A program made the translations under genes and the position numbers. Shown piece after piece: positions 24,331 through 29,592 of a stretch of 64,000 nucleotides of DNA (within the stretch, counting starts at the first letter, position 1; each line of letters opens with the position of its first letter). The notes under the pieces were generated by a model. The model saw nothing but the letters and a program-made list of their open reading frames with translations, searched no databases and was not told the DNA's origin. The DNA is from Synechococcus sp. WH 7803 (GTDB lineage Bacteria; Cyanobacteriota; Cyanobacteriia; PCC-6307; Cyanobiaceae): NCBI GenBank assembly GCA_000063505.1, contig CT971583.1:2139918-2203917 (forward strand), in the 5' to 3' direction.

Positions 24331-25935
24331 ATGACCGACGCACCTGGGGCCGTTCTGGAACTACGGCAACTGCGCCTGCGTTATCCGGGCAGTTCCGCCT
24401 GGACCCTCGACGGCTTGGATCTCCGCCTGGAAGCCGGCGAGCGTCTGGCGCTGGTGGGCCCTTCAGGCTGCGGTAAAAGCACCGTTGCCCGCGCAGCCCT
24501 ACAGCTGTTGCCCCAGGGAAGCCGCTGCGAAGGAGGTCTCTCGCTCAACGGCCGTGATCCGCGCCACCTGGCGATCCCTGATCTGCGTGCCCTTCGGGGA
24601 GACTCGGTTGGCCTGGTGTTCCAGGACCCGATGACCCGGCTCAACCCTCTGATGACAGTGGGGGGGCATCTGCTGGACACCCTGCGGGCCCACCGCCCGG
24701 ACATGAAGGCTTCAGCGCGGCGGGAACGGGCCGAAGCGCTGCTGGAACAGGTGGGCATCGGTGCTGAACGTTTCAAGGCCTATCCCCATGAATTCAGCGG
24801 CGGCATGCGCCAGCGCCTCGCCATCGCCTTGGCCATCGTTCTGCGCCCACCCCTGGTGATCGCTGATGAACCCACCACCAGTCTGGATGTGGCGGTGGCC
24901 GGTCAGGTGATGGCTGCCCTGCGCGACCTCTGTGAAGACCTCGGCAGCGCCCTGCTGTTGATCACCCACGACCTGGCGATGGCCCACCGCTGGTGTGAAC
25001 GCATGGCGGTGCTGGACGGAGGCCAGGTGGCGGAAATCAATCGCAGCGATGTGGTGCTCACCTACCCAAGTTCGCGGGTGGGGCAGCGACTGCTGGCAGC
25101 GGCCCGAGCCCGGGAGGGGGGCACAACCCCGGCAGCCCCTGCAGCCACCACCGTGCTGGACGTGCAGGAGCTGCGCTGTTGGCACAACCTGGGGGGACCG
25201 CCCTGGGCCCCCAACTGGTTGAAGGCGGTTGATGGGGTCAGCTTTCAGCTGCAAGCGGGAGAAACCCTGGGCGTGGTGGGCGGATCAGGCTGCGGCAAAA
25301 GCACGCTCTGCCGCGCTCTGATGGGGTTGACACCCATTCGCGGCGGACGGGTCCAGCTGTTCGAACGCGACCTGTTGCAGTCCCGCGGACGGGAGGCGAC
25401 AGCGATGCGTCGCTCGATCCAGATGGTGTTTCAGGACCCCCTGGCCTGCCTCAATCCCGCCATGACCGTGGCGGATGCCATCGCCGACCCTCTGCTGATT
25501 CATGGCTTGGCGTCCCGAGCCTCAGCGAGAGAACGGGCCCGAGAGCTTCTGGAACGGGTGGGTTTAGGACCAGCGGAACGTTTTCAGAACCGCCTGCCTC
25601 GCCAGCTGTCTGGGGGCCAGCAGCAACGGGTGGCCATTGCCAGGGCGCTCGCCCTGGACCCAAAGGTGCTGATCTGCGATGAGAGCGTCAGCATGCTGGA
25701 TGCAGAAATCCAAGCCGACGTGCTGGCTCTGCTCCGTCAACTGCAGCAGGAGCTGGGACTGGCGATGATCTTTGTCACCCACGACCTCTCGGTGGCCAGC
25801 GGCTTCTGTCACCGCCTGATCGTTCTGGATCGCGGCCACATCGTCGAGAGCGGTCCAGGGGATCAGCTGCTGAGCACCCCCCAAGCGGACATCACAAAAA
25901 TCCTGGTGGATGCCTGTCCGCGGCTGCCGGTCTGA
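24331..25935 (+). CDS. Double ABC ATPase of oligopeptide/nickel transporter type (DppD-DppF fusion-like)
   Basis: This 534-residue protein joins two nucleotide-binding domains. The first has Walker A GPSGCGKST, signature FSGGMRQR and Walker B VIADEPTTSLD. The second has GGSGCGKST, LSGGQQQRVAIARAL and LICDESVSMLD. The spacing and the phrases VFQDPMTRLNP and VFQDPLACLNP match Dpp/Opp/GsiA-type peptide importers. No permease or binding-protein gene is adjacent, so partner subunits must be elsewhere. Divergent from relA. Confidence 0.9.
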   Translation: MTDAPGAVLELRQLRLRYPGSSAWTLDGLDLRLEAGERLALVGPSGCGKSTVARAALQLLPQGSRCEGGLSLNGRDPRHLAIPDLRALRGDSVGLVFQDPMTRLNPLMTVGGHLLDTLRAHRPDMKASARRERAEALLEQVGIGAERFKAYPHEFSGGMRQRLAIALAIVLRPPLVIADEPTTSLDVAVAGQVMAALRDLCEDLGSALLLITHDLAMAHRWCERMAVLDGGQVAEINRSDVVLTYPSSRVGQRLLAAARAREGGTTPAAPAATTVLDVQELRCWHNLGGPPWAPNWLKAVDGVSFQLQAGETLGVVGGSGCGKSTLCRALMGLTPIRGGRVQLFERDLLQSRGREATAMRRSIQMVFQDPLACLNPAMTVADAIADPLLIHGLASRASARERARELLERVGLGPAERFQNRLPRQLSGGQQQRVAIARALALDPKVLICDESVSMLDAEIQADVLALLRQLQQELGLAMIFVTHDLSVASGFCHRLIVLDRGHIVESGPGDQLLSTPQADITKILVDACPRLPV

Positions 25936-25939
25936 CGTC

Positions 25940-26632
25940 ATGGCCGATAGCGCATCTGTAGCGAGTGATCTGGAGCGTGTGCGTTCGATCCGGGCATTGA
26001 TCGCAGATCAGGATCTTTTGATCTGCCTGTACCCCCATCTATTCGCCGTGAAACAGATGGCACGCCTGGCTGGAATACACAGCCGGCGGCAACGGGTGTT
26101 TGTTGAGAGTAGAGCCGACGCTCTGGGCCACCTCCACACCATGACCACGGTTCCTTGGCTTCTGGTGTCCGAGCGCTTGAGCGACAGCTCGGGACTGACG
26201 CTGCTCAGCGACTGTCGACGGCTCATCCCCAGCCATCGCAGTTTGCTGCTGCTGAACCGGCCCAGCGCTGAAACCCTGAAGATCGCCCGCCAGCTTGGTG
26301 TTGATGCTCTTCTGGATGAGCGCAGTGTGGAGAAGCGTTCCGGTGCACTGATTCAGGCTCTGGCTGCCCTTCAGGAGGGTTCGCGCTACGAAGATCCACG
26401 GCTGCAAGACGAGCATCAAGCGCCGCACACCAGCAACAAGACTCTTTCAGGCCGGCAACTCGAGATTCTTGCTCTCGTTGCAGAAGGTCTTAGCAATCGG
26501 GTGATCGCGCAACAGCTGCAGATTTCAAGCAACACCGTGAGAGATCACCTGAGCGAGATCATGCTGCGACTGGACGTGAACAATCGCGCCAGCGCGGTGT
26601 CATCGGCCTTGCGGCGAGGGCTGATGCCCTAA
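25940..26632 (+). CDS. LuxR/NarL-family regulator with degenerate receiver-like domain
   Basis: The protein has a C-terminal LuxR-type helix-turn-helix (about residues 165-228): LSGRQLEILALVAEGLSNRVIAQQLQ and SSNTVRDHLSEIM. The N-terminal ~140 residues look like a receiver fold, but where the phosphoacceptor Asp is expected the sequence reads WLLVSERLSDSSGL, so phosphorylation control is doubtful. ATG 25940 begins four bases after the ABC ATPase stop; a longer frame from 25910 would overlap it. It lies just upstream of the CBM2-like protein gene and could control it. Confidence 0.8.
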   Translation: MADSASVASDLERVRSIRALIADQDLLICLYPHLFAVKQMARLAGIHSRRQRVFVESRADALGHLHTMTTVPWLLVSERLSDSSGLTLLSDCRRLIPSHRSLLLLNRPSAETLKIARQLGVDALLDERSVEKRSGALIQALAALQEGSRYEDPRLQDEHQAPHTSNKTLSGRQLEILALVAEGLSNRVIAQQLQISSNTVRDHLSEIMLRLDVNNRASAVSSALRRGLMP

Positions 26633-26823: not shown

Positions 26824-28413
26824 ATGACTCCCTCCAACACCCTGCAGATCTCCGTCAACGGAAAGCTCTGGTGGGGTGGTTTCACCGCCGAAATCGCCGT
26901 ACGCAATGCCTCGGACCAGCCATTGGAGAGCTGGAGCACCAGTTTCATCAGTGCCCATGACCTGGACCCTGAGGCCTGGGGAGTGGAGATCACCCGTGAA
27001 CCCCTGGGAGAAGGCCTCAGCCGCTACACACTCAGAGGAACCTCCTGGGGACAGAGCATTCCCGCCGGAGGGGAGATTCGCGTGGGATTCAATGGCCGCC
27101 AGGGCGTCGATCTCGGCAGAGATGGCGCCTTGAGCGAAGCCATGCTGATGACGGAAAGACCACTGGGCGAATCGGTGATGGCCGACGCCGACGCCCACAA
27201 CCACGCTGCTGAACACACCGCCGAACGCCCTGCTGAACAGGCCTCACCGTCCCATGGCCACAGCACCATGCCTGGCTCTTACACCGACATCACCACCTGG
27301 GGGAGCTTCCATGGCGCCAACCACAACTCCGAGCACAACGAACTGGTGGGGGGCCGCACGGCGATCACCACTGAAGCGATGGAGGCCTACAACGACTTAC
27401 GCGCCTTTGCTGGACTGGAGGCCGTTTCGCTGGAGGATGTTGGTGCGTGGGCTTATGCCCAGGGTTTGACCAACAACGCGCAGGCCTGGGGCGATGACCG
27501 CAAAGGCGTTGGCCTCTGGTATGCGATGCAGGGCGCAAAGGTGGGCTGGATCGCGGATGAGACCTACAACCCGCAGATCCTGGCGGACATTCAACGCACC
27601 GCCCGCCAAGGCGACACCGACGCGGTGATGGCCATGGTTGAACGCTTCGGCCACGAGGGCTTCGCCAGCTATCTGCGCAGCAATGCGCTCGTGGACACCT
27701 TCACCAACACCCTGAAGATGGAGCCCCACTACGGCGGCTGGATGCACGGCCGCACCCATGGGTTCCTCAGCATCGAAGGCGTGGCGATCAACCACGACAT
27801 CAACCACCTCACGGTGCTGGGCTGGGATCAAAACCAACCGTTCATGAATGACACCTTCGACTACCCGCAGTGGCCTGCGTTGGAGGTGAGCGATGACACC
27901 GTGATTAACTACTTTCAGTCGATCGTGACGCTGGGAGACCCGCTCAGCAGTCAACTGGAGAGCCTGGGGGTACCGAACGGGGCTGGGGCGAACGCGACGC
28001 CATCTGTTGCGAGCACGCCCTCTGCCTCAGCGGAGACAGGGTCCACAACCGACGACCCAATCACCGGTGAATCGCTCGCTGTGGAGATCAGTGGAGACCG
28101 CTGGTGGGGAGGCCTAACGGCCTCACTGGCGCTGACCAACGTGGGCGACCAACGCACAGACAACTGGAGACTGAACTTCATCAGCCCCCATCAATTCACT
28201 GGAGAGAGCTGGGGCACGACGATCGAGACCGAGACACTGGCCGATGGTCTGTACCGTTACCAGCTCACGGGTGCTGACTGGGGACAGTCCATCGAGGCCG
28301 GAGCAACCATCCGCGTGGGCTTCAACGCTCAATCGGCAGACGCAAGCGAGAGCGGGGGTGTCCTGACCCCTGACATGCTGCTGGCAGTGAACAGCGAGCT
28401 GGTGGTGGTCTGA
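26824..28413 (+). CDS. Protein with two CBM2-like domains flanking an unrecognised His-rich domain
   Basis: In this 529-residue protein residues ~7-108 and ~417-522 are clear copies of one another: both have the core W-W-G-G-(F/L)-T-A, N-x-(S/G)-D-Q, the F-I-S-(A/P)-H turn, W-G-Q-S-I and I-R-V-G-F-N strands, typical of family 2 carbohydrate-binding modules. Between them are a His/Glu-rich linker (~120-150), an unrecognised domain (~151-375) with HGRTHG and NHDINH clusters, and a Ser/Thr/Ala/Pro linker (~386-415). No signal peptide is seen at the N-terminus. Binding to cellulose or chitin is inferred from the fold; enzyme activity is unknown. Confidence 0.7.
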   Translation: MTPSNTLQISVNGKLWWGGFTAEIAVRNASDQPLESWSTSFISAHDLDPEAWGVEITREPLGEGLSRYTLRGTSWGQSIPAGGEIRVGFNGRQGVDLGRDGALSEAMLMTERPLGESVMADADAHNHAAEHTAERPAEQASPSHGHSTMPGSYTDITTWGSFHGANHNSEHNELVGGRTAITTEAMEAYNDLRAFAGLEAVSLEDVGAWAYAQGLTNNAQAWGDDRKGVGLWYAMQGAKVGWIADETYNPQILADIQRTARQGDTDAVMAMVERFGHEGFASYLRSNALVDTFTNTLKMEPHYGGWMHGRTHGFLSIEGVAINHDINHLTVLGWDQNQPFMNDTFDYPQWPALEVSDDTVINYFQSIVTLGDPLSSQLESLGVPNGAGANATPSVASTPSASAETGSTTDDPITGESLAVEISGDRWWGGLTASLALTNVGDQRTDNWRLNFISPHQFTGESWGTTIETETLADGLYRYQLTGADWGQSIEAGATIRVGFNAQSADASESGGVLTPDMLLAVNSELVVV

Positions 28414-28479: not shown

Positions 28480-29592
28480 ATGCATCCCATGCTCAGCCGG
28501 AGTGTCCGTCTGACGATTGGGGCACTTTGCAGCGCCCTGCTGACAGCTGAATGCATTCCGATCAGCCAAGCCCAGGACCTCACGGCTGAGGCCACCGATC
28601 CGGTGGATGTGATCTGGTTCCCGAACCCTCCCTACGCCCTCAACGAGAAGGGGATCCCCGCAGGCTTTGAAATCGATCTGTGGCGGATGATTGCTGAAAG
28701 CCGGCAGATCCCTTACCGCATCCGCAAAGCCGACAGCTTTGAAGATCTCCTCGCCGCGATCAGCAGCAACCAGGCCGACTTAGCGATCTCAGGCGTGTTG
28801 ATCAATGAAAACCGCAGCAAAGCCTTTCGGTTTTCCTTTCCCACCGCGAGCAGTGATCTCAAGATCTACACCGTTAACAACGAGGAACCAACAGCCGTCA
28901 AATTACTTCGGGTTTTGTTGTCCAGGGAAGTGCTCCTGATCTTCCTGGGCTTGATCCTGATCGCCTGCATCTTTGCGCTGCCTGTTTGGATGATGGAGCG
29001 TCACCGGCCAGACCTGGCCGACGAACAGAAGCGCCATCAATTGGTTCTCATTCTTCAGAAAACCCTGTTGCTCTCTACAGACCACACAAAACGCACAAAA
29101 ACACGCCTCATCTCCATCGCATCACTGTTTGCCAGGGTTCTATTAACAGCCTATTTCGCCTCCTACATCCTCAAAGTCGCCAGCAGCGAACAACTGACCA
29201 AAAAACAAAACTTGATCGAAGAGATTAACTTTGAAACCCTTAAAGACACAACGTTTGCAGCGATTCCAGGCTATATCTAAACTTCAATCCTGAAAAGCAA
29301 CGGTGCCAAAACCATCGAATGCGATGTCGCAGAAACATGCATTCAGCTGCTCAAAACAGGACAGGCTGATGCCAGCCTCGACGACATGCTGACCATGCAA
29401 ACAACCTTGCCCCTGATGCAGGGAGCGAAGGTCTCCGCTGCTTCAGAGAAGCTCATGACGTTGTTCATGGCCTTTGCATTCTCAAAAAACTTCAGCAAAG
29501 ATCAGCGCGCTCTCGCCATCAATGACGCGATCGCCAGGAGCTATTACGACGGCACTCACGCGAAACTGAGCAGGATCTGGCTGCGGCCATGA
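28480..29592 (+). pseudogene. Ionotropic-glutamate-receptor-like / periplasmic-binding-protein channel, broken by in-frame TAA
   Basis: The frame encodes a signal peptide, substrate-binding lobe 1 (about residues 42-132, with SGVLINENRSKAFRFSFP), a membrane helix (150-171), a second helix (209-231) and the first part of lobe 2. It stops at TAA 29278-29280 (codon 267). The same frame continues without further stops to 29592 for another 103 residues that complete lobe 2. The plan is that of prokaryotic GluR0-type receptors, but the expected selectivity filter between helices is not seen: it reads TLLLSTDHTKRTK. Base composition here is AT-richer than in neighbouring genes. Probably a decayed gene. 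Confidence 0.8.

Follow-up and report, generated by a model that had tools for sequence, protein, structure and literature searches.

An undescribed, predicted all-helical domain of a probable chitinase helper in Synechococcus sp. WH 7803 recurs in putative polysaccharide-degrading enzymes

By sequence comparison, the central domain of a protein of Synechococcus sp. WH 7803 with a CBM2 module at each end, very probably WH7803_2345, is a recurrent and unnamed module of predicted secreted polysaccharide-degrading enzymes that goes with cellulases, chitinases, and LPMOs, and its link to polysaccharide breakdown is well supported. The gene itself has a published role as a chitinase helper; the central domain is the new part of the present analysis. 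Our preferred reading, held with slightly less than even confidence, is that 2345 would be an exported accessory factor of chitin or cellulose breakdown whose predicted metal-dependent central domain acts on the polymer. Within this reading we infer the metal, its identity as copper, catalysis, and direct action on the polymer. The window analyzed is a stretch of 64,000 nucleotides of contig CT971583.1, and the features discussed are collected in Table 1.

Table 1. Features of the window and of a second WH7803 locus (L073) considered in this analysis
Feature	Position	Strand	Basis or remark
LuxR-type regulator, upstream, possibly of WH7803_2345	25910..26632	+	PF00196
ORF: CBM2, Met/His-rich linker, central domain, linker, CBM2	26824..28413	+	529 aa, ATG; very probably WH7803_2345
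N-terminal CBM2 (residues 7-108)	26842..27147	+	PF00553 best stretch 15-94; aligns with 1exg
His-rich linker (about residues 114-152)	27163..27279	+	Predicted disordered, pLDDT under 50 for 114-150
Undescribed central domain (residues 153-386)	27280..27981	+	No family match; all-helical model
Candidate metal site H302, H308, H324, H328 (with E300, R310, D325; H312)	27727..27807	+	75-row conservation
C-terminal CBM2 (residues 417-522)	28072..28389	+	Second PF00553 stretch
GH18 protein with two CBM2 (ChiA)	L073 4923-8075	minus	CBM2 search of genome
Protein with one central CBM2 (2069), beside ChiA	L073 8361-10211	minus	CBM2 search of genome

The open reading frame was confirmed in the window with the start and length given in Table 1. 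Its identity is assigned by inference rather than by a record match. The Synechococcus WH7803 genome holds three CBM2 ORFs with five CBM2 matches, and the published CBM2 trio of this strain consists of ChiA (2068), 2069, and 2345, the last of which carries "two peripheral CBM2 domains" (Capovilla et al. 2023, PMC10651935). Because the three CBM2 proteins of the genome, one of them with two peripheral CBM2, match this trio, the window gene is very probably WH7803_2345. The main-text sections of that paper covered here treat 2345 as a chitin-binding helper and do not discuss its central domain, the relatives of that domain, or a metal site; beyond this gene-level account, we found no description of the central domain in the literature searched. 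An in-frame stop lies nine codons 5' of the ATG, which rules out a misplaced start and leaves no room in this frame for an overlooked signal peptide. An upstream signal peptide was looked for and is absent, in agreement with the initial annotation, which had reported no Sec signal.

The initial annotation had also placed CBM2 modules at both ends of the protein, around an unknown middle, and both parts of this description are borne out. PF00553 (CBM_2) matches two stretches, the protein scoring 63.4 bits against a cut-off of 24 (E 2.8e-17, Pfam); either copy alone also exceeds the cut-off, and the two share 44% identity over 104 residues (E 5e-25). The N-terminal copy aligns over 80 residues with the Cex CBM of PDB 1exg and keeps three Trp aligned with W17, W54, and W72 of 1exg, which we take to be the binding Trp of the Cex CBM. 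In a full-length model built from 24 rows, both CBM2 fold well, the N-terminal one being beta-rich with a pLDDT of about 90, and the linkers are disordered. On these sequence grounds the end modules are genuine CBM2, and binding to cellulose or chitin is predicted for them.

The central domain has no Pfam, NCBIfam, or PDB relative. It was compared by means of a 75-row alignment, made up of the window and 74 of 80 kept loci (omitted were L142, with a stop in range, L110, partial, and by choice L078, L080, L104, and L105, which resemble retained rows closely or lie on a short contig). Pfam gave no match above cut-off for the domain in WH7803_2345 or in the 75 domain members, NCBIfam gave none, and the HMM search proposed in the initial annotation thus brought no confident match to a known enzyme family. 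WH7803_2345 has no GH match at E <= 10 (Pfam), the catalytic domains of GH5, GH9, and GH18 being absent, and a known hydrolase in the middle of the protein was rejected on the lack of any Pfam or NCBIfam family match. DUF6600 was considered as the family and rejected, as 34 of the 75 members match it with a best E of only 0.0087 and the window domain scores 14 bits against a cut-off of 27. A PDB profile search with the domain brought up nothing beyond weak cytochrome P450 rows (best E 0.053).

The AlphaFold and Foldseek check suggested with the initial annotation yielded a confident model and no PDB match. From the 75-row alignment, AlphaFold2 predicts the 234 residues of the domain to be essentially all-helical (pLDDT 90.3, pTM 0.91). 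Foldseek with this model yielded no PDB hit (best E 0.92) and reached a best E of 0.69 in BFVD; a second look with VIA-align over 325 chains gave a best Z of 2.7, which is no proof of a new fold. Taken together, the modeling suggests a fold of which no example has been solved. A deep alignment is needed for the core model, because the 24-row full-length model renders residues 311-354 poorly (mean pLDDT 71), as it does the HGRTHG-NHDINH region.

Four histidines, H302, H308, H324, and H328, are invariant in all 75 sequences, as are E300, R310, and D325; H312 is kept in 70, with N in the remaining 5. These counts are to be read against 57 invariant columns among 234 overall, which include 4 of the 9 His and 4 of the 8 Arg. 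In the AlphaFold2 model, a single helix bears H324 and H328 with a spacing of four residues, while H302 lies just before, and H308 within, the preceding helix, so a shared site is plausible and the four may form a single predicted site. The earlier suggestion that the HGRTHG and NHDINH clusters could hold a metal gains weight in this way, as the clusters and the residues just before them contain all four invariant His.

Copper is favored as the putative metal because a Met/His-rich stretch often precedes the central domain, and copper proteins typically carry such stretches. The last 30 residues of the WH7803_2345 linker hold 5 His and 1 Met. Over 115 domain copies, in sets that overlap and include several identical copies, the 30 residues preceding the domain contain 10.4% His and 7.4% Met, whereas each of the two makes up 1.8% of the rest of the proteins. 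For 25 representatives below 80% identity, the values are 7.1% and 4.3% before the domain and 0.2% and 1.7% after it; among 14 upstream-downstream pairs, the upstream side is richer in His plus Met in 12, equal in 1, and poorer in 1. The leader is not universal: 17 of the 25 representatives have at least three His plus Met in it and 8 have fewer, most mycobacterial and some planctomycete copies have a leader without His, and 346 of 1,248 control windows in the same proteins are as rich or richer. ChiA and 2069 likewise hold Met-rich stretches, and 2069 has long Met-Asp repeats.

The initial proposal of a polysaccharide-active protein is strengthened by relatives fused to GH5, GH9, GH18, LPMO, and CBMs. 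Among the 65 non-cyanobacterial domain ORFs of the 80 kept loci, Pfam recorded CBM_2 in at least 48, Calx-beta in at least 15, GH5 in at least 11, GH18 in at least 6, LPMO_10 in at least 2, and CBM5/12 and RTX repeats in at least 1 each; these figures are lower bounds because the end of a contig or locus truncates 20 of the 65 ORFs. All 34 other cyanobacterial genomes with the domain, of 35 including that of the window, were fetched, and in seven of these loci the protein ends in a GH9 domain. All seven were confirmed by BLAST, with 69-100% identity over 452 residues to the Pfam-confirmed GH9 of L084; Pfam itself places GH9 above cut-off for two of the seven contigs. These cellulase-like fusions occur in planktonic picocyanobacteria (L036, L037, L054, L064-L067; genomes G029, G009, G008, G361, G307, G231, G373). 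No GH9 was found in the Synechococcus WH7803 genome at E <= 1. Three further cyanobacterial loci (L035, L048, L050) carry the central domain twice, in tandem in one chain, and both copies of L050 have the same score against the window domain.

Further insight comes from the other two members of the trio. The first ~230 residues of 2069 are a module shared with ChiA that has no Pfam or NCBIfam name. ChiA and 2069 lack the central domain, whereas 2345 lacks this module and GH18; CBM2 modules and Met-rich stretches are common to all three. The module recurs at 46-50% identity in planctomycete loci L088, L091, L100, and L102 (L088, L100, and L102 being cut at the 3' end), where CBM2, the ChiA/2069 module, and the central domain stand in one chain, to which L091 and L100 add GH18. 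L143 unites the central domain, the module, and RTX repeats. As planctomycetes join their parts in one chain, it may be argued, in the manner of a Rosetta stone, that ChiA, 2069, and 2345 form one system.

Across 400 genomes the domain and ChiA co-occur strongly (35 carry the domain, 51 carry ChiA, and 26 carry both; p 2e-19), but within the genus the association is absent (17 of 24 versus 4 of 7 genomes, p 0.65), so the wider signal may reflect kinship. Nine of the 35 domain genomes have no ChiA-type GH18, two of these nine having GH9 in the same chain, which speaks for an activity or a partner other than ChiA. In one genome that keeps the central domain, the ChiA-type GH18 frame contains several stop codons and is split (G012:C1:941457-942696).

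The domain is present in 24 of 60 related genomes, all 24 in one genus, and in 35 of 400 genomes at the level of the family Cyanobiaceae, in 4 of 59 genera; the relatives are marine Synechococcus and Prochlorococcus. A GTDB contig scan found 119 relatives, of which 80 loci were kept, in Planctomycetota, Actinomycetota (Mycolicibacterium rhodesiae, Mycobacterium), Pseudomonadota (Halieaceae, Rhodobacteraceae), Myxococcota, a Spirochaeta bin, and others. Many of these are MAG contigs whose taxon labels may be wrong; carriers that are not MAGs by title are Pan216 (a complete genome), M. rhodesiae, Mycobacterium BK086, and RCC307. The domain is rare in general genome samples: profile searches matched 5 of 244 genomes of the window's phylum and nothing besides the seed genome among 294 genomes of one phylum around Pan216, 296 of the phylum around M. 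rhodesiae, and 274 of the class of a Methyloprofundus match. Sequences of the 75-row alignment share 54-99% identity in pairs (median 66%). In the tree, the window groups with 11 of the 12 named cyanobacterial rows (support 94/84, slightly short of the starred level). Prochlorococcus MIT 0701 falls outside this group on a long branch, and in the rest of the tree the phyla intermingle. The family is thus tight and has a patchy spread, as after horizontal transfer. Picocyanobacterial chitin genes are reported as likely acquired from planctomycetes (PMC12329445). No central-domain match was found on plasmids by tblastn, nor on viral contigs by single-sequence search. A profile search of viral contigs gave one relative at 67% identity (L162 5001-5696), on an IMG/VR contig of 62,817 bases that may be cellular DNA within the viral collection.

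Of the neighboring genes, rluD has a homologue in 33 and the ABC gene in 30 of the 34 fetched cyanobacterial loci, some contigs ending before the ABC gene. Five genus members without the gene show the same neighbors. In two of them ABC and rluD abut (L172, L174); a third has a 54-residue remnant of the C-terminal CBM2 at the usual site (L175 10051-10212, genome G023), a fourth has the downstream SBP gene at the site (L171), and in the fifth the SBP gene is accompanied by two other genes and a remnant resembling a GH9 C terminus (L173, genome G011). The gene thus occupies a fixed site and has been lost on more than one occasion. The SBP_bac_3 protein of the window (28480-29280) has 266 aa with a membrane-like insertion, and this copy may be cut short, because the L173 homologue sits in a 403 aa frame. 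Homologues (E <= 1e-10) of the upstream LuxR-type regulator occur in 11 of the 34 fetched loci. A second LuxR-type regulator lies beside the chiA/2069 pair (L073 10500-11204), at 27% identity over 190 residues to that of the window; perhaps the two are a paralogous pair of regulators for the system.

Export of 2345 by a non-Sec route is likely in our analysis, because its sibling ChiA, also without a signal peptide, was nevertheless found in the WH7803 exoproteome (PMC4949707). The unusual exit route considered in the initial annotation becomes likely in the same way, and "2345" is absent from the main text of that report. By a crude hydrophobicity rule, a signal-like N terminus is seen in 0 of 14 cyanobacterial homologues intact at the 5' end and in 41 of 53 non-cyanobacterial ones. 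Pfam finds no RTX match in WH7803_2345 itself, such repeats being seen in its relative L143, and a search of the WH7803 genome for HlyD gave only HlyD-like genes below cut-off (best 109.8 versus 208.65 bits).

Comparison with known systems may help to place the central domain. AA10 LPMOs (PF03067) with CBM2 work in a similar way, as they are aimed by their CBM at chitin or cellulose and are found beside GH domains, and two relatives carry LPMO_10 and the central domain in one chain. An AA10 LPMO is a copper enzyme with a beta-sandwich core and, after export, an N-terminal His brace. The central domain, in contrast, is internal, starting at residue 153, and hence has no such brace; with no PF03067 match in any of the 75 members at E <= 1 and a helical model, it was rejected as an AA10 LPMO. 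Type-3 copper enzymes (tyrosinase, hemocyanin) have six His in two HxxxH-type copper sites, whereas the domain has four invariant His and the one kept in 70 of 75; it has no Pfam match to them and no structural match, though the latter is no exclusion. We know of no relative of the domain in the chitin-binding proteins of Vibrio and Serratia. These resemble 2345 in having binding modules and no GH domain and in affecting chitinase activity or expression (PMC10651935).

When these results are placed into the context of the published knock-out, a tentative mechanism can be proposed. Without 2345, the spent medium showed less endo- and exochitinase activity even though chiA was expressed more strongly, and growth was similar (PMC10651935). 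In E. coli, expression of these genes was lethal (PMC10651935). The assays used soluble 4-MU substrates (PMC10651935), which require no help of the kind that crystalline polymer does, and the drop in activity may therefore have another cause. In our preferred reading, the two CBM2 modules would hold 2345 on crystalline polymer, and the central domain would work there beside glycoside hydrolases and LPMOs. Its invariant His would form a metal site, with copper favored, and it would most likely act on the polysaccharide itself, oxidatively or hydrolytically, improving the work of the hydrolases. In WH7803 the partner would be the separate GH18 chitinase ChiA; in planctomycetes, domain and GH18 are in one chain. 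We counted the fusions, the knock-out effect, the clustered invariant His, and the Met/His leader in favor of an accessory, metal-dependent role, and the soluble assays, the missing within-genus link to ChiA, the nine domain genomes lacking a ChiA-type GH18, the non-universal leader, the many invariant columns, and the poor rendering of the HGRTHG-NHDINH region in the full-length model against it.

The main counter-reading, which we consider unlikely overall, is that the domain is a non-catalytic scaffold or stabilizer that binds a ChiA-like partner or the polymer and keeps the hydrolase active, stable, or well placed, its His being structural or holding a structural metal. The phenotype on soluble substrates fits such a role equally, since activity fell with chiA expression raised, as would happen if active ChiA disappeared or worked less well, and the occurrence of the domain with GH18 or GH5 in one chain in other phyla agrees with it. 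A complex was suspected by the authors (PMC10651935), which also suits a scaffold. However, clustered and strictly invariant His with Asp, Glu, and Arg resemble an active site, nine of the 35 domain genomes are without a ChiA-type GH18, and partners as unrelated as GH5, GH9, GH18, and LPMO do not suit one specific partner.

Improbable in our view is a metal-dependent hydrolase (deacetylase, esterase, or peptidase) that removes material attached to or mixed with the polymer and so clears the way for the hydrolases. A hydrolytic zinc could be bound by the H-D-x-x-H motif together with the His, Glu, and Arg close to it, and occurrence with cellulases and chitinases alike would suit a general debranching or cleaning activity. 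Nevertheless, Pfam and NCBIfam give no similarity to known esterase, deacetylase, or peptidase families, chitin deacetylation would be senseless in GH5 and GH9 cellulases, and Met/His-rich leaders indicate copper rather than zinc. Least probable is a surface adhesin tying the cell to chitin or cellulose particles, as in the surface attachment initially proposed: two CBM2, no signal peptide, and no recognizable catalytic domain would allow it, but central-domain relatives are fused to enzymes, and the published knock-out of very probably this gene attached to colloidal chitin without appreciable difference from the wild type, attachment being possibly multifactorial according to the authors (PMC10651935).

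A more far-reaching version of the accessory, metal-dependent reading, which we regard as doubtful, is that the central domain founds a new metal-dependent, presumably copper, enzyme family that attacks crystalline chitin or cellulose. It would then be a counterpart of the LPMOs without a His brace and with a fold lacking a solved example. Horizontal transfer would have distributed it among bacteria of water and soil, and even photosynthetic picocyanobacteria would carry it.

For chitin degradation by picocyanobacteria, the one-chain version of planctomycetes suggests that a single machine is built from ChiA, 2069, and 2345. With a mutant of a tractable marine cyanobacterium already available, the question is directly testable. 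Newly found accessory activities against recalcitrant polysaccharides are few, and they alter the view of chitin and cellulose turnover, and the central domain, with its clustered invariant His and its cross-phylum fusions to GH5, GH9, GH18, LPMO, and CBMs, bears what may be the genomic signature of such an activity.
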